Of a DNA stretch of 64,000 nt, positions 9,966 to 64,000 are shown one piece after another (position 1 is the stretch's first letter; the number at the start of each line of letters is the position of its first letter). The position numbers were made by a program, and so were the translations under genes. Source of the stretch: Blepharisma japonicum (taxonomy: Eukaryota > Ciliophora > Heterotrichea > Heterotrichida > Blepharismidae); NCBI GenBank assembly GCA_949751835.1, contig CATKHK010000003.1, positions 124,001 through 188,000 of the forward strand, written 5' to 3'. Below the pieces are notes generated by a model, which was not told the origin of the DNA, searched no databases, and worked only from the letters and a program-made list of their open reading frames with translations.

Positions 9966-10351
9966 TATAAGTTTATTTTTGGAAAATTATTGTAATAGGC
10001 ATATTTTTCATTTTTAGGATATTTTGCAATTTTAGATATTTAAAGACAGATTTACAGACACGAATTAAATGGATTTTTATAAGAGAATTTTTTGTTTGGC
10101 TGATCAGAAAGCTGGATAATTATTTCTTAAATCTTTATAGCTATATTTCGCAATCTATATAAAACCATATCCAAATTAATTGTTAATCAATAGTATTATA
10201 GAGAGTACAAAGAAGGGCATTTTTGAATTTTTATAAATTTTACTCAATTTTTCTCTCTAAATCATTTATTTAGACCTCAAAACTCTCATTTCATTAAAAC
10301 TCATGATAATTTTTCTTATTTAACATTAACTATAATGTCAATAATTTTCAG
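9966..10351. other. Divergent intergenic region
   Basis: This spacer separates divergently transcribed CNB and ECH1-like genes. From about 10045 it resembles the sequence upstream of the second ECH1 copy (about 11527-11846), so it belongs to the duplicated unit. No gene is seen. Confidence 0.5.
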
Positions 10352-11167
10352 ATGGAGACCATTATATTAGAACGGCTTTCAGAGAATGTTGCCTTAATAA
10401 CATTGAATAAACCAAAAGTCCTAAATGCTATGAGCAGAAAGATGATGGAAGAGATATCCAGGACTATGGGCGAGCTTTCAGACGATCCTGATATTCGATG
10501 CATTATACTTAATGCCAATGGCAGAGCCTTTTGTGCAGGGATCGATATCAATTTTTTAAGAGATTTCTTTGAAGAAACCAAAAGAGCAGATCCGGCTAGA
10601 ACTGGCATCCAAATAAGAGAAAAACTAAAAGTTTTGCAGGACTATATCACGTCGATAGAAAAATGCACAAAGCCAGTCATAGCTGTTGCCCATGGACTAT
10701 GCATTGGTGCAGGGCTAGACCTGATTACAGCTTGTGATGTCAGACTTTGCTCAGCAGACACAATTGTTGGAATAAGAGAAACTCGCGTTGGGATGGCAGC
10801 CGATATAGGCACTTTACAAAGGCTTCAAAAGGTGGTCGGAAATCAGTCGTGGGTGAGAGAAATAGCTTTTACAGGAAACGATATAAAAGCTGTTGAAGCT
10901 ACAGCTCATGGGCTGTTTTCTAGATGCCTTGAAAACAAAGAAAAAGCTTTCGAGGCTGCTTTAAAACTTGCCAATGAAATTGCAGCTAATAGTCCAGTGG
11001 CTCTAGTAGCTGCTAAATGTTCAACGGTTTATTCAAGAGATCACTCAGTTCATGAAGGATTGGATCATATTGGCAACTTTAATGCTTCTGCTTTACAAAC
11101 TGAAGATTTACAAAGAGCAGTGATGGCAATATTACAGAAAGTAAAGGCAGTCTATCCAAAATTATAA
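10352..11167 (+). CDS. ECH1: Delta(3,5)-delta(2,4)-dienoyl-CoA isomerase-like (ECH1), copy 1
   Basis: This is a 271 aa crotonase-superfamily enzyme. The oxyanion-hole segments are RAFCAGIDI and HGLCIGAGLD. The three acidic residues important in ECH1 are all present: the Asp in GAGLDLITACD, the Glu in GIRETRVG and the Asp in MAADIGTLQRL. The GNQSWVREIAFTG and YSRDHSVHEGLDHI segments are also typical of ECH1 rather than of ordinary enoyl-CoA hydratases. The enzyme shifts double bonds during beta-oxidation of unsaturated fatty acids. The protein ends YPKL; mammalian ECH1 ends SKL, so PKL may be a weak type-1 peroxisomal signal. There is no obvious N-terminal mitochondrial presequence. It is the first half of a tandem duplication. 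Confidence 0.88.
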   Translation: METIILERLSENVALITLNKPKVLNAMSRKMMEEISRTMGELSDDPDIRCIILNANGRAFCAGIDINFLRDFFEETKRADPARTGIQIREKLKVLQDYITSIEKCTKPVIAVAHGLCIGAGLDLITACDVRLCSADTIVGIRETRVGMAADIGTLQRLQKVVGNQSWVREIAFTGNDIKAVEATAHGLFSRCLENKEKAFEAALKLANEIAANSPVALVAAKCSTVYSRDHSVHEGLDHIGNFNASALQTEDLQRAVMAILQKVKAVYPKL

Positions 11168-11846
11168 GTTAATATCACAGAATATTTATTCCATTAGCAT
11201 TTTCTTTAATTTAAAAATTATTTTGTGATAAAACCTTAACTCATTCATTAAGCTAAAAACTGGGGGAAAAATAGATAAAGGTCTTAGCAAAAAGTTCTGC
11301 TTTTTCATTTTACGTTAGTCAGAATGGCTTTTGAGTCGAGAAAATTTATGTTAAAAAATTATTTGATTTCGTTAAATATTAAAGATCGAGTTTGGCTTAT
11401 TAATTAACATGGATAAATTTTCATAATTTCTCAAATGGAAACTTTTACTTATAAAAAGCCATAAAGAAGTATTTTTGGTTTATGCTAAAATTAAGAAGTC
11501 GCTTATTTTAATAACAAATTAATATATTTCAGCAAACGCGAATTAAACAATTTTTAATAACAGAAATACTGTTGTTTGATTTCAACAGAAGGCTTCATAA
11601 TTATTTCTTAAAGCTTTCTCGCTCTATAAAACAGTATAAAATTTATTTGCTTAATCAAAAGTATTATAAAGTAAGAGTTTTAAGTATACAGAAAAGCCCT
11701 ATACAATTTTTTTGCAATCTTATCAATTTTATTCAATTTTCTCCCAACAATGATTTATTTAGATCATGCAAGAGTAAATTCATTAAAACTCATGATGTTT
11801 TATTTATGGATATGGCATAAATAAGCATGATATTAATAGTTTTCAG

Positions 11847-12662
11847 ATGGAGAACATCATATTAGAACGACTTTCAGAGAATATTGCCTTAGTAACAATG
11901 AATAGACCAGAAAAACTAAATGCATTAAACAAAACTTTGATTGAAGAGTTGTCCAAAACTATCGACGATCTTTCAGAAAATCCTGATATCCGATGCATTA
12001 TACTTAATGCCAGTGGCAGAGCCTTTTGTGCAGGGATCGATGTGGTTTATAAAAGTAAGCTCTTAGAAGAATCACAAAGAAGTGATAGCGCTAGAACTGG
12101 TATCCAAATAAGAGAAAAACTCAAAATTTTAGATGAACATGTATCGTCATTAGAAAGATGCAAAGTACCAGTCATAGCCGTTGTCCATGGATTATGTTTA
12201 GGTGCAGGGGTTGACTTGATAACAGCTTGTGATATCAGATTTTGTGCGGCAGACGCAATTGTTGGAGTAAGAGAAACTCGCCTTGCAATAGCAGCTGATA
12301 TGGGCACTTTGCAAAGGTTTCAAAAAGTGTGCGGAAATCAGTCGTGGGTGAGAGAAGCAACTTATTCAGGAAATGATATAAATGCTGAAACATGTACAGC
12401 TCATGGGCTGTTTTCTAGATGCCTTGAAAACAAAGAAAAAGCTTTCGAAGCTGCTTTAGAACTTGCTAATCAAATTGCAGCTAAAAGTCCAGTAGCTCTA
12501 GTAGCTGCTAAATGTTCGTTGAATTTCTCAAGAGATCACTCAGTTAGTGAAGGATTGGACCATATAGCTAACTTTAATGCTTTTGCTTTACAAACTGAAG
12601 ATCTAGCAAAAGCTATGATGGCATTAATGCAGAAAAATAAGCCAGTCTTTCCAAAATTATAA
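11847..12662 (+). CDS. ECH1: Delta(3,5)-delta(2,4)-dienoyl-CoA isomerase-like (ECH1), copy 2
   Basis: This 271 aa paralog is the same length as the upstream copy. It keeps all recognised catalytic acids (GAGVDLITACD, GVRETRLA, IAADMGTLQRF) and the same C-terminus (FPKL). Differences cluster in the region after the first oxyanion motif (GIDVVYKSKLLEESQRSDS) and in GVRETRLAIAADMG, where Gly-Met of copy 1 becomes Ala-Ile. This may alter the acyl pocket. Both copies look functional, with no stop or frameshift, so this is either a dosage duplication or early subfunctionalisation. Confidence 0.88.
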   Translation: MENIILERLSENIALVTMNRPEKLNALNKTLIEELSKTIDDLSENPDIRCIILNASGRAFCAGIDVVYKSKLLEESQRSDSARTGIQIREKLKILDEHVSSLERCKVPVIAVVHGLCLGAGVDLITACDIRFCAADAIVGVRETRLAIAADMGTLQRFQKVCGNQSWVREATYSGNDINAETCTAHGLFSRCLENKEKAFEAALELANQIAAKSPVALVAAKCSLNFSRDHSVSEGLDHIANFNAFALQTEDLAKAMMALMQKNKPVFPKL

Positions 12663-26292: not shown

Positions 26293-26719
26293 TGTAAAAT
26301 GGTACTCTATTTAAATAATAAGCTCTTTTGGTACCTTTTTTAAATTTTAAAAAATTCATATTTTTTAGTTGATTTTGAGAGTTTTTATATTTAATTTTTT
26401 ATTATTTTAGAATTTAAATTCGTATTTGTGCATGAACTCAATATCAATGCCTATAAAACCTTTAAAAATTAAATAGCTTATTGCATGATAAAAACCTTTT
26501 GAATGTAGTATAAAAATAATAATTGATTTATTTTTCTAAAAAATAATTTAAGTAGAGCTCGGAAAATAATATTTAGAAACTAACTAATCTTATGGTTATC
26601 TAAAATATTTTTTATGTGACTCTGTGTAAAAACTAGAAAAATCTTAACCATATTAGATTATAAACCTACTTCACTGATTAATATGAAACTGTTTTGTTAA
26701 TAATTATTTTGTGGTTCAG
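26293..26719. other. Intergenic, no gene seen
   Basis: This AT-rich region is upstream of the first acylated kelch-like gene. No frame or repeat is recognised. Confidence 0.4.
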
Positions 26720-28315
26720 ATGGGTAATGCAGCAAATAAGCAAAATAAAAAGAACTCTAAGAAAATTCCAGAGTTTTACTACCTCAACCGCAAGCGACAG
26801 AGACTTCTTCACGTTGAGCCAGGCCGGCTAACTTCATCTCAATTTCAGCCAGCTGTTGTTTTCCCTCCTGACTCAGCCATTGGTTATGTCCAAGGTTCTT
26901 GCATTATGGTTGCAGGAGGATCTGAGAAAAACAAGTTTATCACTCGCGTTGCTTTAATTAACACTTCAACAATGAAGCTCAAGTTTTTAAGCCCACTTCC
27001 TATTGCTTCAAAGGAAGGTCATTTATATGAGTATAAAGAATGAGTTTATTATGTAGGCGGACTATCAGAAGCCAAACTAGATCCTAGGTCTTCTCAGGAT
27101 GAGCCAGCCCCTTTAATGAGATACCATATGAATAAAAATAGGTGGGAATATTTTGTAAATTATGAAGATGAAGGTTTAGTAAAAAGAAGTATTATAAAGG
27201 AAAAAGAGCTCCAAGAGGACGAAGAGGTCCATGTAACTGTCGACAAAAATGAAAAAACACTTTATAAGTTTGAATTAACTGAGCTTACACTTAGAGATTT
27301 GCTATTGCCAGGCACTTTTATGAGTAATGGTAAGATATATTTCATCGGAGGATTTATTATGGACTGAATTGGGAGACTGATCCCAAATAAACAAGTATTT
27401 TCTTTAGACTTATCTCGAAATAAGCCTAAATTTCAAATTGAGCCATTTAAAATTCCGTTTTTAGTAGTACGACCTATATGCTCAAATGGAGGTAAGCATA
27501 TCTTGATTACTGGTGGACTAAATCCAAGGTCAGGGAGACCTAGCCAATATAGTTATGTTTTGACTTTAACAGATACTTCTGCTACCTTCACACCTTTAGA
27601 TGTACTACAAGTCGAGCTTCTTGAAACTTGTGCTCCTATTACTTTGGAGAATTGTGTCATTTTCCCTAATTATCCACTTGTCCCAGTAAGAAGAAGACAT
27701 TTAAAAGAATGGCAAATATTTGATGTAAAAAAAGAAAAGAGGTCAAAATTTGTTGAAACGAATGAATTAATAAAAAATGAAAATGAATTAGGTGATGACG
27801 AAAAAGAACCAATTAAGAAATGGAAACCAATGATAATACCATTAGGAGCTTTTATTAGCGAAGAAGAAGGATTTGAGTTTACAACGAAAAAAGATGAAAG
27901 CGCAGTAGATGAGGATGGAGTTATCATAAAAATGTGTGGATTAGAATATGAAGAAGAAGAAGATGAAGACATAAAAGATCCTGTAAAAAGCGACAGAAAA
28001 ATAGAGATTGGAGGACCGGAATCATTTAAAACATATGATCCAGAAATGATACAAATAAATACAAATAAAAAAAAGGATTATGAATTAGTTGAAAATACAG
28101 AAAGATCCAACAGCAGGAGGACAACTTGTGCAAGCAAAAATTCGAAAAATATAACCATAATAGAAAATAGTGTGTCTAGAAAGAAAGAAAGGGATAAATC
28201 ACTTCCTTCGCATCCAAAATGTCCAACTAATGAAAATGTGGCTGAAACTGCGACCAAGCCCAAAGGAACTCTTGAAGATTATTTTCTTAAAAATTTAAAA
28301 GATAAAAAGCATTAA
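26720..28315 (+). CDS. Kelch-like protein with N-myristoylation signal, copy 1
   Basis: The 531 aa protein starts at the ATG at 26720 (MGNAANKQNKK); Gly2 with small residues behind it suggests N-myristoylation. Two TGA codons are read as Trp (YKE-W-VYYVGG, FIMD-W-IGRL). Kelch-like blades are visible: SCIMVAGGSEKN, VYYVGGLSEAK, KIYFIGGFIMD and HILITGGLNP. The last third is acidic/basic low complexity (YEEEEDEDIKD, Ser/Lys-rich tail). The next gene is a diverged tandem copy with the same order. The protein is probably a membrane-tethered beta-propeller scaffold; partners are unknown. A GTG-initiated extension of three codons is not needed. Confidence 0.75.
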
Positions 28316-28433
28316 TTTTAGAGAATTAATACACAATTAAATGAAACTATAGGAAATTATTTATCTATAACTTGCTATTTATTTTATACAAATAATTATT
28401 TTAAATATGTATTTAATAATTAAAAATAACACA

Positions 28434-29849
28434 ATGGGCTGCAAATTTTTGAAGTCTCCAATAAGTAAAAACCCTTCTATCGAGCCATTCTATTACTTAG
28501 ACAGAAAAAGACAAAGACTTATGTACATCGAGCAAGACAAAATAATAGCATCTCAGTTCCTTTCTTCCGTCATATTTCCTCCAGATTCTGCTATCTGTTA
28601 TATCGATGAGTCATGCATTCTCGTTGCTGGAGGTACAGATGGTAACTCCTTTTCCACAAATTTTATATTAATCAACGCTTTAAGGATGAAAATCAAGTTT
28701 TTATCATCTCTTCCAGTAGGTGCTAAAGAAGGAAGCTTATATATTTACGAAAATTGGGTTTATTATGTAGGCGCTGTCTCTCGTGCTATTCTTGACTCAA
28801 GATCTGTACAAGAAGAAGCTGCTCCTCTCATGAGATTTGATTTTAAAAAAAATCGTTGAGAATATTTTGTAGGACCGAATATACAAGAGTTCATGAAAAG
28901 AAAAGTGCAGCATATTGGTGAAAATGATGAAGAGTTTGATCCAAATGAAAATAATTTATATAAATTTGAGTTGGACCAATTTACATTAAGAGATTTATTT
29001 TTACCTGGGACTTTTATGAGCAATCATAAGATTTATTTTATTGGAGGATATATAATGGATAATATTGGAAAATTAATTCCAAATAGCCAAATATTTTCAC
29101 TTAATTTAAGAGGGGATAGACTGAGACTTGTAGTTGAGCCTTTTACAGCCCCATTTAATGTAATAAAACCTATATGCTCATCAGGAAATCATCATATTAT
29201 AATAACAGGAGGGTTTGATGCAAATACTGAGCTGCCAAGTCCTATAAGTTTCACATTATCCTTAAACAAATCATATATAAAGTTCACCCCTTTGGATGTT
29301 TTACCCATTAATATTCTAGAATCATGCGCTCCAATATACAAAAATGATCATGTTATTTTCCCAAATTTTCCATTTGTTCCTATAAGAAGAAAATCAAAAA
29401 AAAATTGAGAAATTTTTGACGCAGGAAAAAATAAAAAACACAATTTTATGGAAACTGCTGATTTGATAAAAAGTGTCAACAAAAAAGGAGAAAACGATAA
29501 TCCTCCTATAAGAAGAATCAGGAAAATGGCAATTCCAATAGGAGTTTTTAAAAGCAAAGAAGAAGGTTTTGAATTTTTAAAAAAAATGGACGAAAGCCAA
29601 TCAATGATTGTAGACGACGAAATTAATATAGACATTGATGAAACTGAAACTAATAGCAAAGAAGGACTATCACCCACAAATAAGAGCAAGCAAGCTGAAA
29701 GCTTCTCGGTTTACAATAGAAGCACTACCATAAATGAAAAAAGTCATCTTACTATGAATGTCGAAGACAAGCCTAAAAAGATAGTAATAAAATCAAAGAA
29801 AAAAGAGAAATACCGTTCTCAAAATAAAAATTTTATTATTTATGAATAA
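28434..29849 (+). CDS. Kelch-like protein with dual acylation signal, copy 2
   Basis: The 471 aa protein starts at the ATG at 28434 (MGCKFLKSP). Met-Gly-Cys is the classic dual signal for N-myristoylation at Gly2 and palmitoylation at Cys3. Two TGA-Trp codons lie in the frame (KKNR-W-EYFVG, SKKN-W-EIFD). It aligns along its length with copy 1: FYYLDRKRQRL, VIFPPDSAICYI, LLPGTFMSN-like LFLPGTFMSN, FTPLDVLPINILESCAPI. The Asp/Glu-rich segment is shorter and the Lys-rich tail differs. Upstream in-frame ATG at 28407 would hide the acylation signal, and copy 1 supports the shorter start. It is separated from copy 1 by 118 nt. Confidence 0.75.
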
Positions 29850-52640: not shown

Positions 52641-55295
52641 TTACTGATTACTAAAGATACGCTTTACGCGCTTAAAAGAGTTGCAAGACTCATACTTTCG
52701 AATTTCTTTGCAATAATCAATAAGACTTTTCCATTTCGGATTCCTTGCTAAGCAAGTTTCATTTCCAATAGCGTACATTCCATACTTCGCTCTGCTGATA
52801 GCTACATTCATTCTTCTCTCATCCTTGAGAAATCCAATTTTTCCAGATCTAACAGCACTAAAAATGACAATATCAACTTCTCTTCCTTGAAAACCATCCA
52901 CCGAACTTACCTCACAATTATTTTTCCAAGAATTCCCATATCTTTTAAATAATAATTTTTCAATGTGCTGAACTTGTCCTTTATAAGGAGAAATTATTCC
53001 AATGTGAGCATCATTTCTACCAATTCTCGTTCTAAGTACTTCATAAAGCTCTAATGCGAACTGTGCTTCAGGAATATTATAGTAGCTCATAGAGCCTTTT
53101 GATACCTTTTCTCTAGACGTGCTAATATTGAAAAAGAATAACCCTTCAGGATATACCCAACTTGGTATTGTACGATTATTTATGCTGTTTCCTGTACGGA
53201 TTTGATTTTTATAAAACGTTTTGCTAGTAAAATCACTGATTTCTCTCATCATCCTATATTGCTCACATAATAGAACAGGCTTAATATTACATTCTGTCAT
53301 TCTTTCAAATAAGGATCTGTCATACCTATTAATTTTTGATTTTTCTGAAAAAGTTGTAGCTGGAAGTTGTTTAGGATCTCCAATTAATATAATTGATTTA
53401 GGGTTATATAGAAATGGTATTGAGGTACTAACCTCTAAGCTTTGGCAAGCTTCATCTATAATTAGATAGTCAATTGATTTAATATTTTTCATAGCTGTAA
53501 AAGAGCCAGCTCCACTTAAAGTGCAAAATATAACATCTGAGTTTTTAATTAAATCTTTTTGGCATTTATTCTTATTCCCAAAGAAATTCTTTCTTTTCTT
53601 TCTCAGATCTGACAGTTTAGGATAAAGTTCTCTCATAGTGCTCAAGGAATTATAGTTATTTTCTTTTTTCAACCCTTCTATTTGTTTTTCTAGTTTTTCT
53701 ATATCTTTGATTATTTCTGTTATATTCAGGTTTGAATTTTTTTCTTTAAGCAATCTTTCAAGTTTTTCACCCAATCTTATTGAATGTACAGTCATTTCTA
53801 TTTCTTCAGGAGTTTTTTCTTCTTCTTCAACACCTAACTCATGCTTTTGCTTTTTTTCTCCTATCCTCAATAAAGAAATATCTTTTCTTTTAATTCCATA
53901 TATATCAAAAATTCCTTTTCTTAGCACAGTTGATGCAATTTCATCAACTGCTGCGTTGCTTTGGGCACAAACTAAGATCTTGCATTTTGGATTAATTGCA
54001 AGGAGCCCTGATAAAATCCCAACGACTGTAGTTGTTTTTCCAGTTCCTGGAGGCCCCTGAATTAGAGATATTTTCCCATCAGACTGTATTGAATTTTTAA
54101 TTGCATCAACCTGAGAACTGTTATAATTTTTATTTCTTATAGTATTCATGAAGACTGTGGGTATACATTTTTCTCTTACTGGCACACATACTTTAGGGTT
54201 AAGAATTTGACTTCCCAGTGATAAATCTTCAAAGTCGCCTAATGCATCAAATTCTCTCTTTACGGGTGTAATATTCCCTATTGAAGTTGCTATATATTTT
54301 CTTGAAACTTTAAATAATTTTTTCCTGCTTGGATCTAGTGAAATCGTGATATTATTGTTTTTCCCTTTATTTACCAATCCTAGTGTTCAATTAATATTTC
54401 TATTTTGCAGCTCTTTAAAGTTTTTAGGTGCTTGGCCCTGGTCAGGAATAATTAGCACAATATCATCATTTCGGATTTCATTTTCAAATACTGCTTCATC
54501 TGAGTCTCTTTCAGAGATAGATGCATACCTTTTTTGAACATTAAGATTTAAACGATAACTGTTCGACAAGAATGCTTCTCCTAATGCTTGTTCTAATATT
54601 GCATCTAATTCAATATAAAATGCATGCTCAAAATGATGTCTGTATGTTGACTCATCTTGAAATGAGCTTGGTATCGGTATTGGCTTCTTTTTAGGGGTTA
54701 AAGGGTTGTAGGAGAGAATAAAAGTAATAAAATCTGAAAATTCTATATCTGATGAATTTGATGAGTCTGAAGAGGAGTCAGAAAAATCACTAGAATTTTT
54801 TCTTCCTATGTTAGACTGTTGCTGTTGATAGGTTCTAATTTGGGTATTGTTGTACCTATTTTTAATTGGAATATTTGAATTGGCTTTAGGTTTTGGCTGA
54901 GATGGACTTACATAGGGCGATATATCTTCTTCATCATAGCTATCTCCATCTAATCAATATTGCGAGTATCCTCCTGTCTGATACAAATTTCCTGCAAATG
55001 CTTGACTGGTCGTTTGGGCTTGAGATTTGCAAGTTGATGCTTGAGGAGATGGAAGTCCTAGTGGAGTAACATTTTTAATTTGAGTTGTACAATTGTTATT
55101 AGTTGGGTAATAACTGGCAGGTATATTGCTAAAATTGTTCGTGGATTTGTATAATCCTTTCTCTGTTGTAGCCAAAAGAGAGGCTCCTCCTAGCTTGCAG
55201 GCTGTATGCTGAGATACTTTCTCTAGCGGTTGCAGGCTAATAGATTCCTTTTCTTTAAGCTCTCCAGAGTCACATGTTGATCATATGGATCCCAT
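52641..55295 (-). CDS. Upf1/Sen1-like SF1 helicase, array copy H1
   Basis: The 884 aa protein reads from the ATG at 55295 (MGSI-W-STCDSGEL) through several TGA-Trp codons. Residues 1-190 are Ser/Asn/Gln-rich. A conserved family N-domain follows (FEHAFYIELDAILEQALGEAF, NDDIVLIIPDQGQAPKNF, INWTLGLVNK). The SF1 core has Walker A GPPGTGKTTT at ~414, an insert with coiled coil, motif II IDEACQ, motif III GDPKQLP, EQYRM, VDGFQGREVD and RRMNVAISRAKYG (motif VI, arginine finger). These define the Upf1-like branch of SF1B RNA/DNA helicases. Its closest relatives in the window are H3 and then H2. All motifs are intact, so ATPase activity is expected. The biological role is unknown. Confidence 0.9.
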
Positions 55296-55337
55296 TATAT
55301 TATTGCTTCATTAATCTCTTTTTTTGTTAAATCTCCA

Positions 55338-55387
55338 AATTTCGGGAATATATGGCGCATTTTTTAAATTTCGGGAAAATATGGCGT
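55338..55387 (-). promoter_or_regulatory. Duplicated TTCCCGAA element upstream of H1
   Basis: Two imperfect direct repeats, AAATTTCGGGAATATATGGCG and AAATTTCGGGAAAATATGGCG (plus strand), start 29 nt apart and lie 43-92 nt upstream of the H1 ATG. On the gene strand the shared core is TTCCCGAA. The same core precedes H2, the pseudogene and H3 at similar distances, so it is a likely common promoter element. Confidence 0.6.
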
Positions 55388-55527
55388 TAAAAAAATTATA
55401 GCATATATAAACTTGAAATCAAAAATTTCAATTTTATCAACTGATAAATAGCTAGAAACCGTTGTTATTCAGCTACAAATTATTATTTACAGAACTTTAT
55501 CAAAAAACTCAATTAGATATAAATCGA

Positions 55528-58044
55528 TTAAAATATGTTAAAGATATGCTTCACATCTTCGAATTTTCTACAAGACTTGTATTTCTCAATCTGCATGGAA
55601 TAGTCCAACAGAGCCCTCCATTTAGGATTGCTTGATAAACAAGCTTCATTGCCAACAGCGAACATTCCGTACTTCGCTCTGCTTACAGCTACGTTTATTC
55701 TTCTTTCATCCTTGAGAAATCCGAGTTTCTGTGATCTTACAGTGCTAAGAATCACCAAGTCTACTTCTCTTCCTTGGAAGCCATCAACTGAACTGACTTC
55801 ACAATTATTTTTCCAAGAATGCCCATATCTTTTATATAACAAATCTTCTATGCGATCTACTTGCTCTCTATAAGGAGAAATAATTCCAATAGAAGCATTG
55901 GTATTGTAGATTTTCTTACTTATTAGAGCGTAGAGTTTTAGCACAAATTGTGCTTCGGATTCATTATAAAGACTTTCTTTGTTTGAGGGTTTTATTTCTT
56001 GAGAAGTCTCAAGATTAAAAAAGAATATCCCAGAAGGACATACCCAAAGAGGAATGGGGCGATAAAGAACACTTTTAGCAGTTTCAAGCTCCCCATTATA
56101 GAAAGTTTGGCTAACGAAATCATTGATTTCTTCCATCATTCTATATTGTTTTCTCAGCATAATTGGCTGTATATTACAATTTATCATTCTTTCAAAAAGC
56201 GATCTATCAAATCTGTTTATTTTCGATTTTTTCGAAAAAGTAGTTGCTGGAAGTTGTTCTTGGTCTCCAATCAATATTATAGATTTGATAGTATCGGAAA
56301 ATGGTATTAATGTACTTGCTTCTAAGCTTTGGCAAGCTTCGTCTATAATTAAGTAGTCAACTGAATCTACATTTCTCAAAAGTGCAGATCCAGCAATACT
56401 TAAAGTGCATAATATAATATTTGCAGACTTTATTGTCTGAATTGAGAACTCTTCTTTTTTTTGGAAGAATCTCTTCTTCATAGTTTCCAATTCATCTATT
56501 TCATCAGAAATTGAATTGAAATTTTCCCGAAGCTTTTTCAAGAGGTTATGATTTCCTCCTCTTTGGGATCGGTTTATTTTTGCCTTTATATCTTTAAGTT
56601 TATGAATTTTTGATCTGATCTCATTAGTTGGATTATAAATACCTTCTTTCTCAAGCATTTTTTCTACAATAACACTGAGTTTTATAGAATTTATGCTCAT
56701 TTCTACTTCCTTAGAAGTTTTTATTTCTTCTTGGGCTCCCAATTCATGGGTTTCCCGTTTATTTCCTATCCTCAATATCTTGATATCACTTCTTCTATTT
56801 CCATTTTTATCAAAAATCCCCATTTTCAATATTTTTGACGCGATTTCGTCAACAGCTGCATTGCTTTGAGCACAAATTTGGACCGTTACCATTTCGTCTA
56901 GGAAGAGCCCTGACAAAATTCCTACAATGGTAGATGTCTTTCCAGATCCTGGAGGTCCTTGAATTAGTGTAAAATTGTCATCAGATCTTATTGACTCAAC
57001 AATCGCTTCAAGTTGATACCCGTTATATTTACTTCTAATCGTATCCAAGAACACCCAAGGGAGTTTCTTTTTGCGGCCTTGCTTTTGTTGAGGACGAAGA
57101 ATTTGCTCCTTCCACAAGCAATCACCAATTTGGATTAGTGCTCTGTATTCTCTTTTTAAAGAAGAAACATTCCCAATAGGTGTGACCAAAAACTTTGTGC
57201 TGCTCTTAAGCAAAGCAGCCCTATTTTCTCCAAGCATTATCTTAATTTCTGTGTTTTTCCCATTCATGTTTTTATAGACCAATCCTAAAGTCCACTTGAT
57301 ATTTCTTTTTTGAAGATCTTCAAAACTGCTTGGGATCTGCAATTGCTCGCCAATAATCAAAATAAGATCATGTGTTCTGATTTCATTAGCAAAATCTGCT
57401 TCATCTAGGGTTTTTGTACTCACAAAAGCTTGCCTCTCTTTCATATCGAGACTCAATAGATAGCTATTTTTAAAGCATACTTCTTTTAAAGCTTTTTCTA
57501 GAATGGCATCAAGCTCGATAAAGAATCCATGCTCAAAATAGGAGAAGTAGTCTGAGTCATCTTGAAAAGAATTTGGGATAATTCTTGGCTTTTCTTTTGG
57601 TCCATATGGGCTATAGTTTAAAACATTTTTGATAAATTTCCCAAAAATGGCTGGGGAACTTGAAGATGCAGTGGTCGTCAAATCAGAACACATGGATTCT
57701 GAATCTGAGGCTGAGTCTGAGTCTGAGTTTGACTCTAGATCTGATTTTGGGGTTTGGGTTGAGTTTAAGCATAAGCTTGAATAGCTTTGCTCAATTTCGA
57801 ACAAATAAGATTCATACCTAGGCAATGAACCACTATATGAATAATAGAATGGGTTTAGATTGCAAGCAGGCATTGAACTTAGAGAATAGCCTACATATGA
57901 ACTATTCATTAACTCATCCATAGATTCTTTAGCAGCTGCATATGTAGGGAATACACTGGGATTAATCTCTTGTGGATATGCATTCAAACCATCTCTTTTT
58001 TTGTTTAGTTGAGCTGAGCAATCTGACCTTGGAATAAATTCCAT
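55528..58044 (-). CDS. Upf1/Sen1-like SF1 helicase, array copy H2
   Basis: The 838 aa frame is fully open, without internal TGA. The N-terminus MEFIPRSDCSAQLNKKRDG differs from H1 and H3. A Ser/Asp/Glu-rich tract lies at ~100-130 and the family N-domain at ~165-260 (FSYFEHGFFIELDAILEKAL, IKWTLGLVYK). Walker A is GPPGSGKTST at ~363, motif II DEACQ, and motif III GDQEQLP, in which Pro-Lys of the sisters is replaced by Gln-Glu. KQYRM, VDGFQGREVDLVILSTVR and RRINVAVSRAKYGMFAVGNE follow. It is the parent or sister of the truncated pseudogene upstream, with which it shares about 150 bp of promoter. Catalytic residues appear intact. Confidence 0.92.
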   Translation of the reverse strand: MEFIPRSDCSAQLNKKRDGLNAYPQEINPSVFPTYAAAKESMDELMNSSYVGYSLSSMPACNLNPFYYSYSGSLPRYESYLFEIEQSYSSLCLNSTQTPKSDLESNSDSDSASDSESMCSDLTTTASSSSPAIFGKFIKNVLNYSPYGPKEKPRIIPNSFQDDSDYFSYFEHGFFIELDAILEKALKEVCFKNSYLLSLDMKERQAFVSTKTLDEADFANEIRTHDLILIIGEQLQIPSSFEDLQKRNIKWTLGLVYKNMNGKNTEIKIMLGENRAALLKSSTKFLVTPIGNVSSLKREYRALIQIGDCLWKEQILRPQQKQGRKKKLPWVFLDTIRSKYNGYQLEAIVESIRSDDNFTLIQGPPGSGKTSTIVGILSGLFLDEMVTVQICAQSNAAVDEIASKILKMGIFDKNGNRRSDIKILRIGNKRETHELGAQEEIKTSKEVEMSINSIKLSVIVEKMLEKEGIYNPTNEIRSKIHKLKDIKAKINRSQRGGNHNLLKKLRENFNSISDEIDELETMKKRFFQKKEEFSIQTIKSANIILCTLSIAGSALLRNVDSVDYLIIDEACQSLEASTLIPFSDTIKSIILIGDQEQLPATTFSKKSKINRFDRSLFERMINCNIQPIMLRKQYRMMEEINDFVSQTFYNGELETAKSVLYRPIPLWVCPSGIFFFNLETSQEIKPSNKESLYNESEAQFVLKLYALISKKIYNTNASIGIISPYREQVDRIEDLLYKRYGHSWKNNCEVSSVDGFQGREVDLVILSTVRSQKLGFLKDERRINVAVSRAKYGMFAVGNEACLSSNPKWRALLDYSMQIEKYKSCRKFEDVKHIFNIF

Positions 58045-58084
58045 TATATAGACTCTATATTTGTCTTTAATAAATAGGAAGGGT

Positions 58085-58114
58085 TTCGGGAATTGTCATT
58101 AGCGGGCTAATGAC
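58085..58114 (-). promoter_or_regulatory. TTCCCGAA element plus palindrome upstream of H2
   Basis: TTCGGGAA (plus strand) at 58085-58092 is 41 nt upstream of the H2 ATG. It is followed by a perfect inverted repeat at 58095-58114: arms GTCATTAGC and GCTAATGAC around GG. The palindrome could bind a dimeric factor or form a hairpin. The pseudogene promoter has the same layout with two arm mismatches. Confidence 0.6.
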
Positions 58115-58229
58115 AAATAATCGAAATATGTATTAGCTTTTTATAAATTATGCTAAAATTAAATAAATATACATTAGATAATATATAAAAATATCTGATT
58201 TTTTACCATCCCTCAATAGTGAAGGATAT

Positions 58230-59636
58230 CTGTTTCGTTAGTTTCTAAAAGTGGAAGAGTTAAAGTGCAGGATATAATATCTGCAGTACTTATTTTTTCC
58301 GCTTTGTGTTAGAAGTTCTTATTTCTTCTTGGGCTCCTAGCTCATGTGTTTTTCTTTGTCTCCAATCCTCAATATTTTGATATCACTTTCTATTTCTATT
58401 TTTATCAAAAATCCCCATTTTCATTATTTTTGACGCGATTTCGTCAATAGCTGTATTGATTTGATCACAATTTGAACCATTACCAGTTTCTTTAGGAAGA
58501 GACTCGATAAAATTCCTATAATGGTATATATCTTTCCAAATCCTGGAGATCCTCGAATTAGTGTAATTTTGCCATCTGATCTTATTCAATTTGATACTTG
58601 CTATATTTACTTCTAATCTGCTCCAACAAAAAACAGCTGATAGAGTATTTTTGTGGCCTTACTTTTGCTAAGAAGGACGAAATAGCGATTTCAACAAGCA
58701 ATCATCAATTTTGATTAGTGCCTTATATTCTCTTTTTAAAGAAGAAGCATTCTCAATAGAAGTTGCCAACTATTTTCTGCTGCTCTTAGGTAAAGTCGCC
58801 TTGTTTCTCCAAACGGAATCTCAATTTTTGTATTTTCCCCTTTCATATTTTTATATACCAATCTCAAAAATCCACTTGATATTTCTTCTTTATAGCTCTT
58901 CAAAAACTGTTTGGGGTCTGAAACTGCTCGTCAATAATCAAAATATTTTCATTTGTTTTTATTTTATTGATAAATTCTGCTTCTTCTAGTGTTTTTGCAC
59001 TCACAAAAGCTTGCCTCTCTTTCATATCAAGACTCAATAAATAGTTATTTGCAAGGCAAACTTCTTTTATAGCTTTTTCTAGAATGGCATCAAGCTCTAT
59101 AAAGAATCCATGCTCAAAATAGGATAAGTAGTCTGAATCATCTTGGGATAATTCTTGGTTTTTCTTTTGATTCATGGATTATAGTGTAAAAGTTTTTGTT
59201 AAATTTCCCAAAAATGGCTAGGGAGCCTGAAGATGCAGTGGTCGTCATATAGAGCACATTGAGTCTGATTCTAGGTCTGATTCTAGGCTTTGAGTTGAGA
59301 TTAAGCATGAGCTTGAATCTGAGTTTTCATATCGTTGGACAAAGGAAATTTCAATTCAGGCAAATTATAATTATAAATTTTCTAAACTTTGCCTTCTTAT
59401 GGTATTTTTCAAATTATTCCTTTAAAAAAAATAAATTAAATCAAAATAATGATTAAATTATTACTTAAAACAATTAATAGGATGGTTTGATTGTAAGCAG
59501 GCATTGAACTTCCAAGTTCTTCAGTAGCTGTAGATATAGGGCGTGCCCATGGTATGAATTCTTGTGCATTTGGATTCAAACCATCGCTTTTTTTGTTTAG
59601 CTGAGCTGAACAATCTGACTTCGGAATAAATTCCAT
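58230..59636 (-). pseudogene. Truncated, chimeric helicase pseudogene
   Basis: A start identical in context to H2 (MEFIPKSDCSAQLNKKSDG, ATG at 59636) is followed by a frame that stops within 70 codons. Family segments reappear in shifted frames: FFIELDAILEKAIKEVCL and SLDMKERQAFVSAKTLEEAEF at 58900-59175, then a damaged Walker A (GSPGFGKI instead of GPPGSGKT) near 58555, and DEIASKIMKMGIFDKN at 58383-58589. The 3' end jumps to a short piece resembling H3 at 61580-61650 (TGCAGGATATAATATCTGCAG context). Everything beyond, including motifs II-VI, is missing. It is non-functional. The promoter with TTCCCGAA is kept. Confidence 0.88.
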
Positions 59637-59675
59637 TATATAGACTCTAATTTGTCTTGAATAAATAGGAAGGGT

Positions 59676-59705
59676 TTCGGGAATTGCCATTAGCGGGTTA
59701 ATGAC
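59676..59705 (-). promoter_or_regulatory. TTCCCGAA element upstream of helicase pseudogene
   Basis: TTCGGGAA (plus strand) at 59676-59683 lies 40 nt upstream of the pseudogene ATG, followed by a decayed version of the H2 palindrome (GCCATTAGC, GTTAATGAC). The surrounding ~150 bp is nearly the same as upstream of H2. The duplication therefore included the promoter. Confidence 0.6.
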
Positions 59706-59869
59706 ATATAATCGAGATATGCATTAAGATTTAGAAATTTGCTAAAATTGAATAAATATACATTAGATAGCAAATAAAAATATCCTAAGTACAATCTTCA
59801 AAGAGTAATGTAATCAAAAATTTAGTTTTGAAAGAATTGTAAAAGACGCGTTTTCAAATCTTTTTATAT

Positions 59870-60110
59870 TTGAAAAGCGTTCTCAATGTATATTTCCATT
59901 TCTTCCATATATAATCATACTTTTCTGAAGTTCATTCTTCTTTTTCATCCTTAAAAGAACTCCGTTCTTTGAATTTTAAATATTACCAATGGAAAAATCT
60001 ACTTCTCTCTTGAAACTATTAGATGAGTTGATTTCATAATTAAATCTAACATCATTTGGCTTTTTTTAAATAGCACAGATTGCCTTGTGTTATATAACTT
60101 GATTTTTTTA
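59870..60110 (-). pseudogene. Heavily decayed helicase C-terminal remnant
   Basis: Minus-strand fragments resemble the region around motif V/VI of the neighbours: NYEINSSNSFKREVDF compares with NCEVSSVDGFQGREVD, and after a frame change SFKDEK compares with GFLKDERR. The plus-strand nucleotide context (TGTTATATAAC before it) also matches H2 (TTTATATAACAAATC). There are multiple stops and frameshifts. It is probably the remaining 3' end of another array member whose rest has been lost. Confidence 0.45.
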
Positions 60111-60148
60111 ATAAAATTTTTAATTTTTATTTCATCTTTTAATCAGAG

Positions 60149-60388
60149 ATGCCAAACAACAAAAAGATTGTCGAGAGGCTTGGCTATCATTCATTGGTGT
60201 GAAGAATATATATAAAGACTCATTGGATTTTAGAAACCCAAAGTCTGAAATTGAAGAAAGAAACGATTTTAAGTGATATCTATAAATTGCTTATGCACTA
60301 CAGATATAAAGAGGTGATGATAGCTTGGAATTCTCAAAATGAAGATAAAGGCAAAATTTTAGATAAAGAGTTTATAGAAGAGAGCTAG
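60149..60388 (+). CDS. Small hypothetical frame using TGA (tentative)
   Basis: A 79-aa frame from MPNNKKIVERLGYHSLV-W-RIY runs through one TGA and ends EDKGKILDKEFIEES before TAG. It is the only plus-strand frame in the helicase array and has a coding-like composition (SDIYKLLMHYRYKEVMIAW). No family is recognised. It may be a real small gene or a remnant. No intron is needed. Confidence 0.3.
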
Positions 60389-60722
60389 TAGAGGAGTTAA
60401 AGATTCATTCCTCAATAATTTTTTAATTAAAGTTTATGATTTTTAATTAATTTATTAGATACGAAATGTCTAAATTTATGTAAAATTTAAAAAAACTCTA
60501 ATTGAAAAATGATTCGATAAGCCAATCTTAGAGAAATTTTATTCAAATACTTTAAGTTCCACAATATATCCAATAAATAAAAGTTCTGATAAACATTTAG
60601 TAAGAATTATTATTTCATTATATAATAATTTTAAATGATGCTTGTACTTAGCTTATTTAATCAAAGAAACAATTCTGATCTTTAAAATGAAATAAACTAT
60701 AAAAATATAAAATAAAGAATGA
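60389..60722. other. Intergenic, downstream of H3
   Basis: This AT-rich spacer lies between the small frame and the 3' end of H3. No gene or conserved motif is recognised. Confidence 0.4.
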
Positions 60723-63407
60723 TTATTGCTTATTAAAAATATGCTTACCACCTTCAAAAGTTTTACAACACTCATACTTTCGAATTTCTTTGCAATAATC
60801 AATAAGGCTTTTCCATTTAAGATTGCTTGCTAAGCAAGTTTCATTTCCAATAGCGTACATTCCATACTTCGCTCTGCTGATAGCTACATTCATTCTTCTC
60901 TCATCATTGAGAAATCCAATTTTTCCAGATCTAACAGCACTAAAAATGACGATATCTACTTCTCTTCCTTGGAAACCATCCACAGAACTTACCTCACAAT
61001 TGTTTTTCCAAGAATTCCCATATCTTTTAAATAATAATTTTTCAATGTGCTGAACTTGTCCTTTATAAGGAGTAATTATTCCAATGTGAGCATCACTGTT
61101 ACCAATTTTCTTTCTAAGTAACGCATATATGCTCAATACAAATTGAGCTTCAGGGTCATTAAAATAGCTCATAGAGTCATTTGCCATAGTTTCTTTTGAT
61201 TTTTTAAGATTGAAGAAGAATAGCCCGGTTGGGCATATCCATTTTGGAATTGGGCGAGAATTTATGCTATTTCCAGTCTGGATTTGATTTTTATAAAATG
61301 TTTTGCTTGTAAAATCACTGATTTCTTTTACCATTCTATACTGCTCCCTTAATAGTGAAGGGTTATTGTTGCATGTCATCATCCTTTCAAAAAAGGATCT
61401 ATCATATTTGTTTATTTTTGATTTTTCTGAAAAGGTTGTGGCAGGGAGCTGCTTGGGATCTCCTATTAATATAACTGATTTAGGGTTATATTGGAATGGA
61501 ATAAGGGTGCTAAGCTCCAAACTTTGACAAGCTTCATCAATAATTAAATAGTCAACTGAATTAATATTTTGAGTAACTAAAAAAGAGCCAGCTCCACTTA
61601 AAGTACAAAATATAATATCTGCAGCTCTTATTTTTTCCGCTTTGTACAGCTCTTTTTTAAGAAAGTACTTGGCTTTTATTTTTTTTAGCTCTTCAAGATC
61701 ATCAGAGAGTAAATTGAATTCAGTTTCAAGATCTTCCATCGCATCATATTTCCCTCCTTTTTGTAGCTTTTCCATTTGCTTTTCTATTTTTTCGAGTTTT
61801 CGAATTATTTTTGTTATATCTAATGAAGGGTCATAAAGTCCTTTATCATTAAGCATTTTTTCCACGATCACATTCAATTTAATTGAATTTATGCTCATTT
61901 CTATTTCAGTTGAAGTTTTCACTTCTTCTTCAACACCCAGCTCGTGCTTCTGTCTCTTTTCTCCAATTCTCAGCAGAGAAATATCATCTCTTTTATTCCC
62001 ATTTATATCAAAAATACCTTTTTTCAGTACAGTTGAGGCAATTTCGTCAACTGCTGCATTACTTTGAGCACAAATTAATACCTTTATACCCTGATTAACT
62101 GCGTAGAGTCCTGATAAAATGCCTACTACAGTTGTAGTTTTTCCAGTTCCAGGAGGTCCTTGAATTAGAGATATTTTTCCATCAGAACTAATTGAATTTT
62201 TTATTGCTTTCACTTGTGATTTATTGTATTTATTTTGGATTGTTTTTATAAATTCATTGGGGATATTTTTTTCATTACATTTTTGGTATGGCTGAGGACT
62301 AAGGATTTGTTCTCTAAATGAAAATTGATCAATCTTATCTAGCACTGAAAACTCTCTCTTTAAAGATGTAATATTCCCAATAACCGTAATCATGTATTTT
62401 CTGTTATATTTTAGCTCATTCCCTCTATCTGCATAAAGCAAAATTTCAAATTCTTCTTTCTTATTTTTCCTTTTATTTCTCTCTACCTTTTTGTTTATTA
62501 ATCCTAAAGTCCAACAGATATTATAATCAGTCAGCTCTTCAAAGTTCATAGGATATCTATTCTGCTCAGGTATAATTAAAACAATATCATTTACACACAC
62601 TTCATTCTCAAATTTAGCTTCATTTGAGCCTTTATTTGATAATAATGCAACATTTTCTTCCATTTTCAAGCTTAAAAGATAGTTATCGTGCAGAAAAGCT
62701 TCGTCTAATGCTTGCCTTAAAATTGCATCAAATTCTATATAAAATGCAGGCTCAAAATGAGATCTGTAAATAGATGTATCTTCAAATAATCTTGGTATTG
62801 TTGTTGGCTTAATTTTTGGCTGAAGAGGGCTGTATGCCAAAATAAAGGTGACAAATTCTGAATAAACTGTTGGAACGTCTGGAGAAATAGGAAAATCGAT
62901 AGCAGGCGTAATATTTTGAGAAAAATCTGTCCTTTTCTTGGCCTTTTTTGATCTTCTTTTATTTTTTCCTTGTTTGGATTTTTTTGAAGCGTTGCTACAA
63001 TTGACTATAGCAGCAACACTATTAGAACTGCTTTCAGATTTATCCTGAATCGGAGTAATGCTGCTTAAATTCAAGGTATCTGAGCTAGCAGTAGAGCTTT
63101 CGTCAAAATTTATGTATTGATGAGGTCCAATTGTGCCAAAATGGCTGGGATCATTATTTAAGGTTTGAGATTGATTAGCATTGGAGGATGAAAATCCTAG
63201 CAAATTAGGGCTTTTGATTTGGTTTCATAGTGTATTTTTACTTGTTTCTGTAGTTTCACACAAGTTTTCATCTGATTGCTCCAAATGAGAGAACCTTTCT
63301 AGCTTACAATCTAGACGTTGAATTACTATCTCTGAATGACATAAACTAGATAATTTCTCTGCACTCAGATTCTCAGATTCTAATGATCTTAATAAAGACC
63401 CCATCAT
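60723..63407 (-). CDS. Upf1/Sen1-like SF1 helicase, array copy H3
   Basis: The 894 aa protein reads from the ATG at 63407 (MMGSLLRSLESENLS; the next codon is also ATG) with one TGA-Trp (NTL-W-NQIKS). A low-complexity N-terminus with a basic stretch (KKSKQGKNKRRSKKAKKR, ~130-147) may be a nuclear signal. The family N-domain (FEPAFYIEFDAILRQALDEAF, ICWTLGLINK) leads to the SF1 core: Walker A GPPGTGKTTT at ~417, DEACQ, GDPKQLP, EQYRM, VDGFQGREVD and RRMNVAISRAKYG. Its last ~150 residues are almost identical to H1, while H1 and H3 differ more in the N-terminus, a sign of gene conversion in the array. All motifs are intact. Confidence 0.9.
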
Positions 63408-63449
63408 ATTTTTATAATTAAATGATTTCTAAGACTTAAATTTTAACAA

Positions 63450-63457
63450 TTCGGGAA
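63450..63457 (-). promoter_or_regulatory. TTCCCGAA element upstream of H3
   Basis: TTCGGGAA (plus strand) occurs once, 43 nt upstream of the H3 ATG at 63407, matching the position of the element in H1, H2 and the pseudogene. Nearby CCAATATC and CGGCATATGG words are not shared exactly. Confidence 0.55.
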
Positions 63458-63603
63458 TAATTGCCAATATCAAGCTAACGGCATATGGTCAAGTTAATAA
63501 AGGAAAAATTGAAGTTTATAAATAAACGAGATTTTAAAGTAAGAAAGATGAATTCAGAAATGATAAAATAAAAGATATAAGATGCAATTATTCAATAAGA
63601 TTA

Positions 63604-64000
63604 CTAATACCTTGGTTTATTGAAAATATATCTCACATCCTCAAAAGAGCGGCAAGACTCATATTTGTATAATTCTTTGCAATAGTCAATCAGACTTCTC
63701 CATTTAGGGTTACTTGATAAACAAGCTTCATTCCCAATAGCATACATTCCATACTTTGCTCTGCTGATAGCTACATTCATTCTTCTCTCGTCTCTGAGAA
63801 ACCCAATTCTTTCAGATCTGACAGTACTAAGAATAACTAAATCGACTTCTCTCCCTTGAAAACCATCAACTGAACTGACTTCACAATTTTTTTTCCATGA
63901 ATTTCCAAACCTGTAATATAATAAATCTTCAATATACCGAACTTGTCCTTTATAAGGAGAAATAATTCCTATGTGAGCATTCGTATTATATGTTCTCTTT
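63604..64000 (-). CDS. Upf1/Sen1-like SF1 helicase, array copy H4, 5' part outside window
   Basis: The last 131 codons of another helicase run from the window edge to a TAG at 63604. Visible motifs are HIGIISPYKGQVRYIEDLL, NSWKKNCEVSSVDGFQGREVDLVILSTVR (motif V region), ERIGFLRDERRMNVAISRAKYGM (motif VI) and EACLSSNPKWRSLIDYCKELYKYESC. The LVILSTVR segment is closer to H2, while RRMNVAISRAKYGMYAIGNE is closer to H1/H3. The frame is intact as far as seen. The array therefore continues past this window. Confidence 0.9.
   Translation of the reverse strand, partial: KRTYNTNAHIGIISPYKGQVRYIEDLLYYRFGNSWKKNCEVSSVDGFQGREVDLVILSTVRSERIGFLRDERRMNVAISRAKYGMYAIGNEACLSSNPKWRSLIDYCKELYKYESCRSFEDVRYIFNKPRY

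Follow-up and report, generated by a model that had tools for sequence, protein, structure and literature searches.

A row of helicase genes in the somatic genome of the ciliate Blepharisma japonicum (assembly GCA_949751835.1; 45.2 Mb in 224 contigs) raises the question of which type of helicase it encodes and in which process its products would act. The row begins in the window analysed here, a stretch of 64,000 nucleotides (contig CATKHK010000003.1, hereafter C3, positions 124001-188000), where the helicase genes, all on the minus strand and arranged head to tail, extend from position 52641 past the end of the window. Judged by sequence comparison, all five genes of the array are Sen1/senataxin-type SF1B helicases, and all five are preceded, 48-57 bp upstream of the ATG, by a short element, TTCCCGAA, which recurs before some PIWI genes elsewhere in the genome. 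The explanation tentatively preferred here, plausible though short of probable, is that the five genes are co-activated with some of the PIWI genes and that their products would remodel non-coding RNA or PIWI-target complexes in a small-RNA pathway.

A first-pass annotation, made from the letters of the window, had described a tandem head-to-tail helicase array with a truncated pseudogene in a ciliate genome, and on these points it was right. It had counted four helicase genes, the pseudogene and an older remnant. With TGA read as tryptophan, the array has, in addition to the pseudogene, five intact genes, three of them lying wholly in the window, a fourth crossing its edge and the fifth outside it; an older remnant separate from the pseudogene was not found. 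This reading of TGA holds for the genome because all 14 Sen1-like family members have W at one alignment column, encoded by TGA in seven of them, and because the genes end in TAA or TAG. Code table 6, in which TAA and TAG encode glutamine, was ruled out, as the helicase frames terminate in these codons and contain neither internally. UGA also encodes tryptophan in Blepharisma stoltei, for which the same source, in the passages available, gives CCCTAACA as the Blepharisma telomere repeat and reports 64 telomere-to-telomere sequences (PMC9942806); (CCCTAACA)n repeats were found at or near contig ends in the present assembly. TGA is common as a tryptophan codon in array-type genes (seven TGA and two TGG in the fifth copy), and both UPF1-like genes of the genome are devoid of it (0 TGA, with 12 and 9 TGG).

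Gene starts were taken as the first in-frame ATG, and the end of the fourth gene and the whole of the fifth were reached by continuing the window coordinates. Under code 4, H1 (52641..55295, 884 residues, stop TAA), H2 (55528..58044, 838 residues) and H3 (60723..63407, 894 residues from the first ATG) are single open frames lying entirely in the window; H1 contains three TGA codons, including an in-frame TGA at 54387-54389. Only the 3' end of H4 lies in the window (63604..64000), the gene continuing to 66645 (C3:190645), and H5, also an open frame, occupies continued coordinates 67606-70458 (C3:191606-194458). All five genes are on the minus strand, and in H1, H2 and H3 the Pfam domains AAA_11 and AAA_12 and all seven helicase motif patterns were recognized.

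A protein search of the genome, whose gene counts are lower bounds, recovered at least 14 Sen1-like genes: besides the five on C3, which form the largest array of this family, there are four on C10 (J1-J4), a pair on C43 and single genes on C109, C1 and C97. UPF1-like genes were located on C32 and C54 and an SMUBP2-like gene on C14. The best PDB chains for H3 were 8ftm, 8fth and 8ftk, annotated as "5'-3' RNA helicase-like protein", and yeast Sen1 5mzn and 8ram. The first three we take to be Chaetomium Sen1; in the alignment, 8ftm and yeast Sen1 share 47% identity. Sen1-type chains scored 245-236 bits, followed by UPF1 (197), SMUBP2 (135), ZNFX1 (97), aquarius (88) and DNA2 (85). Profile A1, built from 13 family members and leaving out J2 because that gene spans two loci, likewise had Sen1-type chains as its best PDB matches and aligned to yeast Sen1 residues 1112-1861. 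AAA_11 and AAA_12 were found in the nine family proteins scanned and also in J3 and J4 (J2 was scanned as a cut piece), and the seven motif patterns are present in 14 of 14 family members, motif Ia being CAQSN throughout the C3 array and CAPSN in all nine genes outside it.

By sequence, the array genes share with Sen1/senataxin the full-length helicase core, including the brace and barrel region, as well as the motifs and the best PDB matches. In the first-pass annotation, the region ahead of the core had been regarded as a lineage-specific domain, a view that does not survive profile searching. Profile A2, built on this N-domain, reached only Sen1-type PDB chains at E values up to 10, with 8ftm, 8fth and 8ftk at 3.8e-5 to 1.5e-4 and yeast Sen1 5mzn as a weak match (0.059); the region of H3 corresponding to that matched in fungal Sen1 is the N-terminal part of its core (62235..62894, minus strand). 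The brace of yeast Sen1 comprises residues 1097-1149 and is described together with the barrel (PMC5452015). By alignment, the position of the N-domain fits this brace and barrel. The family alignment contains an insertion whose place and size would suit the prong (subdomain 1C). The prong is required for unwinding and termination.

Several features separate the array proteins from Sen1/senataxin: their N-termini are short and of low complexity, motif Ia reads CAQSN, the family has 14 copies here versus one or few, and the long Sen1 N-terminal domain was not listed by Pfam (E up to 0.1) in the nine proteins scanned, which is why the genes are filed as having a Sen1-type core and not as Sen1 orthologs. 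The N-termini are hypervariable, and the alignment agrees with the earlier observation that they differ among copies. Four of the five array genes begin MG or MMG, H2 being the exception. Membrane anchoring by N-myristoylation was set aside and the starts kept as an observation, given that only H1 and H5 fit the myristoylation consensus well, that H3 starts MM and that other genes of the window also start MG.

The label "Upf1/Sen1-like" given earlier was sound as to the SF1 class, and Sen1-like fits better than Upf1-like. The array genes belong with UPF1 and SMUBP2 to SF1B, but they match these proteins less well than Sen1 and sit outside both in the tree. UPF1 identity was rejected on the lower PDB scores, the position outside the UPF1 clade and the preference of profile A1 for Sen1, and ZNFX1 identity on a score of 97 bits, where the best Sen1-type chain reached 245, the NF-X1 finger characteristic of ZNFX1 not being listed; neither this finger nor the Cys-His zinc domain of UPF1 was listed by Pfam in the nine scanned proteins. 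In the phylogenetic tree, the 14 Sen1-like genes form one clade (support 100/98) beside fungal Sen1, separated from UPF1/SMUBP2 at 94/93, and are divided into four clades, each supported at 100/100. The five array copies constitute one of these instead of being spread among universal orthologs, as the phylogenetic check proposed in the first-pass annotation could have revealed, and the C3 and C10 arrays are united at 98/96. These values are to be read with the long branch of SMUBP2 and the odd composition of two rows in mind, and support is lower for branches within the C3 array (82/70 to 93/86).

The intact copies are old. Synonymous divergence (dS) between them is 0.86-1.94, the ratio of nonsynonymous to synonymous divergence (dN/dS) is 0.21-0.39 (0.21-0.30 for H2 against the other four), and the proteins are pairwise only 47-60% identical, which makes an assembly artefact unlikely. 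Intact motifs and purifying selection indicate that the five array genes are apparently working. The ongoing birth and death claimed earlier is overstated for the array, because its intact copies differ by such dS values; younger duplicates do occur off the array, namely the C43 pair (dS 0.26) and three C10 copies (dS 0.45-0.50). The C43 pair (C43:240775-247664) shares the N-terminus MKNS[CR]VVDLT[ED]D, which, we presume, resembles a SUMO-interacting motif.

Only one decayed copy was found, where two stages of decay had been reported. The pseudogene (~58260..59638, minus strand; blastn and tblastn) is a decayed H2 copy without the 3' half; it covers residues 1-444 of the 838 of H2 and the upstream region of H2, with 83% identity across 1328 well-aligned bases. 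Of its scored indels, 15 of 16 break the frame, and its differences are spread nearly uniformly over codon positions (0.167, 0.157 and 0.196), working pairs having about twice as many at position 3. The piece at 59490-59636 proved to be the pseudogene's own 5' end, and no second helicase remnant was found by tblastn (to E 1e-3) or with the family hidden Markov model on seven stretches around the genes. A 48-base piece (58260-58307) is closest to H3, with 90% identity, and may hint at a mosaic origin of the pseudogene.

The element before the array genes was examined at each copy. Two TTCCCGAA elements stand before H1 (55341..55377, 53 and 82 bp before the ATG), and the form ATTCCCGAA precedes H2 (58085..58093, 48 bp), the old ATG of the pseudogene (59676..59684, 45 bp) and H3 (63450..63458, 50 bp), all on the minus strand; that of H4, beyond the window, lies 57 bp before the ATG. 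The window has four copies of ATTCCCGAA where 0.45 would be expected, those of H1, H2, H3 and the pseudogene, and CATATATTCCCGAAA has three copies in the genome, each in the array. Among 93 gene-like open reading frame (ORF) starts in 186 kb, the element is found within 90 bp in the five array genes and in 0 of 88 others, and it has remained intact although the synonymous sites of the array copies have diverged.

Genome-wide, ATTCCCGAAA followed after 33-51 bases by ATG gave 35 rows: C3 has five of them, C87 has three, and the remaining 27 fall at 25 other loci; all rows were looked at, and the sequence of all 25 other loci was inspected. At seven of the 28 non-array loci the pattern stands at a gene start. 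Four of these genes are PIWIs (three on C87 and one on C6); the others encode a TROVE protein (C54), a UvrD-like helicase (C13) and an NDUFB7-like protein (C32). In a zinc-finger-like gene on C90 the element is only 17 bp upstream of the first ATG, and this case was left uncounted. TROVE is a Ro60-type RNA-binding domain. The pattern CATAT N0-8 TTCCCGAA is located at gene starts in seven of 19 sites (H1 twice, H4, H5, TROVE and two UvrD-like genes on C13), the remaining 12 lying elsewhere, and in the second UvrD-like gene the element is merely 23 bp before the ATG. The leaders also agree outside the core of the element, since one C87 PIWI gene (C87a) and the TROVE gene have TTCCCGAAA-N-ATCCCTTAT in common, and GCCATAT is common to both UvrD-like genes, H1 and H5. 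Motif-bearing PIWIs fall in one of two large clades of the PIWI tree, with two changes needed.

As observations on the loci themselves, four PIWI genes stand in tandem at C87:83374-94768, the TTCCCGAA element being present at three and missing from the fourth; the UvrD-like helicase at C13:57900-60460 is assigned by Pfam and PDB matches, and the second element-bearing gene, C13:101200-101940, is tied to it by N-terminal sequence alone. A different feature, a CCCC run 10-80 bp before the ATG, was seen at eight of 18 PIWI, Dicer-like and PiggyBac-like starts, compared with 0/76 and 2/13 in two backgrounds, the second being the loci fetched for the motif (8/18 vs 2/89, Fisher p 5e-6, post hoc).

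If the element is regulatory, acting as a common promoter or 5'-leader element on the array, four PIWI genes, the TROVE gene and two UvrD-like genes, the array genes would be turned on together with a subset of PIWI genes. Each array protein would move along RNA, driven by ATP, and strip RNA-RNA, RNA-DNA or ribonucleoprotein contacts as Sen1 does, and the helicases would in this way remodel non-coding transcripts or PIWI-target complexes, most likely during formation of the new macronucleus. In developing B. stoltei, the genes with the strongest up-regulation include one PIWI and one Dicer-like gene, according to passages of PMC9942806. A ciliate RNA helicase acting with PIWI-bound scan RNAs (scnRNAs) is known in Ema1, which, in the portions of the sources consulted, promotes the interaction of scnRNAs with long non-coding RNA in Tetrahymena (PMC10830130) and is required for chromatin binding of Ptiwi09 in Paramecium (PMC11724296); by analogy, the array helicases may work like Ema1. 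A small-RNA role for the array, raised in the first-pass annotation as a guess, gains independent but circumstantial support from the element that the array has in common with some PIWI genes.

Several points weigh against this proposal. The element was spotted by eye, so that all statistics on it are post hoc, and copies within one array are not independent. Its counts scarcely exceed those of reversed controls: 35 rows vs 23 for ATTCCCGAAA with a downstream ATG, 19 sites vs 14 for CATAT N0-8 TTCCCGAA, and 15 vs 12 for ATATTCCCGAAA, three of whose copies are in the array and three 46-52 bp before PIWI ATGs on C87. The variant ATTCCCGAA[CGT] is not enriched at all (34 rows vs 40), and a wider regulon defined by it was ruled out on these numbers; its rows comprise H3 twice and 31 other loci (30 inspected, one inside the C97 gene), with a clear gene start at none of the 31 and one borderline case, an RRM-like gene whose ATG is 62 bp downstream; frames of 68-89 residues, present at three loci, and a frame nested in a longer ORF were excluded from the count. 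Among 12 PIWI genes found in the genome, four carry the element and eight do not; it was not found at the four Dicer-like and two PiggyBac-like starts examined, nor in forward orientation at the nine off-array Sen1-like genes, and it does precede the NDUFB7-like gene, whose Pfam score is just below the cut-off. Besides the starts examined, the genome has a Dicer-like gene on C20, further PiggyBac-like genes, two more TROVE genes and a weak RNase III match at C3:3445. Finally, Ema1, as described in the passages available, is likened to the array by function and not by sequence.

Such numbers bear on the view that the element is no regulon signal, having been inherited within each array and matching other families by chance. 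The motif is indeed short and was chosen after the data had been seen, and seven of 28 loci against one of 31 gives a Fisher p of merely 0.018, or 0.038 without the NDUFB7-like gene. We nevertheless consider a chance origin distinctly improbable, as the element persists in spite of synonymous divergence and unrelated families have it at 46-57 bp too, together with additional flanking bases in common. Site numbers being near chance, the signal lies in position and gene identity.

The genes bearing the element also bear on what the helicases would do. Duplicated termination or R-loop helicases, multiplied for dosage or for different life stages and untied to PIWI, would explain why the core is Sen1-type over its full length and why an NDUFB7-like gene shares the element, which would then mark a broader expression class. 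A precedent exists in Oxytricha, where a development-specific SEN1 paralog arose together with Pol II paralogs (PMC5312943): in both ciliates Sen1 has been duplicated, one Oxytricha copy serving macronuclear development, but the passages of that paper at hand, on whose description the likeness is drawn, give no tandem array or link to PIWI genes. This ordinary duty is an unlikely but serious candidate, in view of the absence of the element from the 88 background ORF starts, its bearers being mostly RNA-silencing or helicase genes, and of the nine other Sen1-like genes that could cover a general task. Rather unlikely is a defence role, in which growing cells would use the array and the tandem PIWIs for an RNA-based response against transposons or foreign RNA, the paralogs multiplying as in other defence families. 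Tandem arrangement of both the helicases and the motif-bearing PIWIs, hypervariable helicase N-termini and the presence of TROVE, with a presumed Ro60-type function, would suit it; the age of the array copies and their purifying selection do not.

A narrower form of the preferred small-RNA explanation, possible but on balance doubtful, is that GCCATAT..ATTCCCGAAA about 50 bp before the ATG marks a small regulon of the Sen1-type array, a PIWI subset, TROVE and two UvrD-like genes, in which the Sen1-type helicases, perhaps including J-domain-like fusions, would be dedicated PIWI-pathway remodellers. Literature searches on the topics Blepharisma/Piwi, Sen1-ciliate, Ema1 and promoter brought up no paper whose title or opening lines of abstract dealt with this array or element, subscription papers and supplements lying outside the search, and the promoter element GCCATAT..ATTCCCGAAA is new relative to the papers searched. 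The fusions belong to J1-J4, the second tandem array of four Sen1-like genes (C10:131005-146048). HPDK is present in the N-terminal part of all four, and against the Pfam DnaJ model J3 scored 26.9 bits (cut-off 27.8), J2 18.9 and J1 16.1, J4 having no listed match at E values up to 0.01; by motif and order the four are J-domain-like fusions, below the curated threshold. J4 carries the element inverted, beginning 45 bp before its ATG.

Elsewhere in the window, two tandem-looking pairs of frames were noted, one enoyl-CoA-hydratase-like (10310-12659; named by eye) and one of related frames each starting MG (26687-29405). An Rfam scan of the window returned no match at gathering scores.

It is an open question how, in ciliate genome editing, small RNAs come together with the transcripts they target, and helicases are prime candidates. 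The element before the Sen1-type array may point to small-RNA genes regulated as one module, which could act in nuclear development, and the J-domain-like helicase fusions may hint at recruitment of Hsp70 to such complexes. A DNA element common to helicase and PIWI genes would turn a vague guess about small RNAs into a directly testable one.

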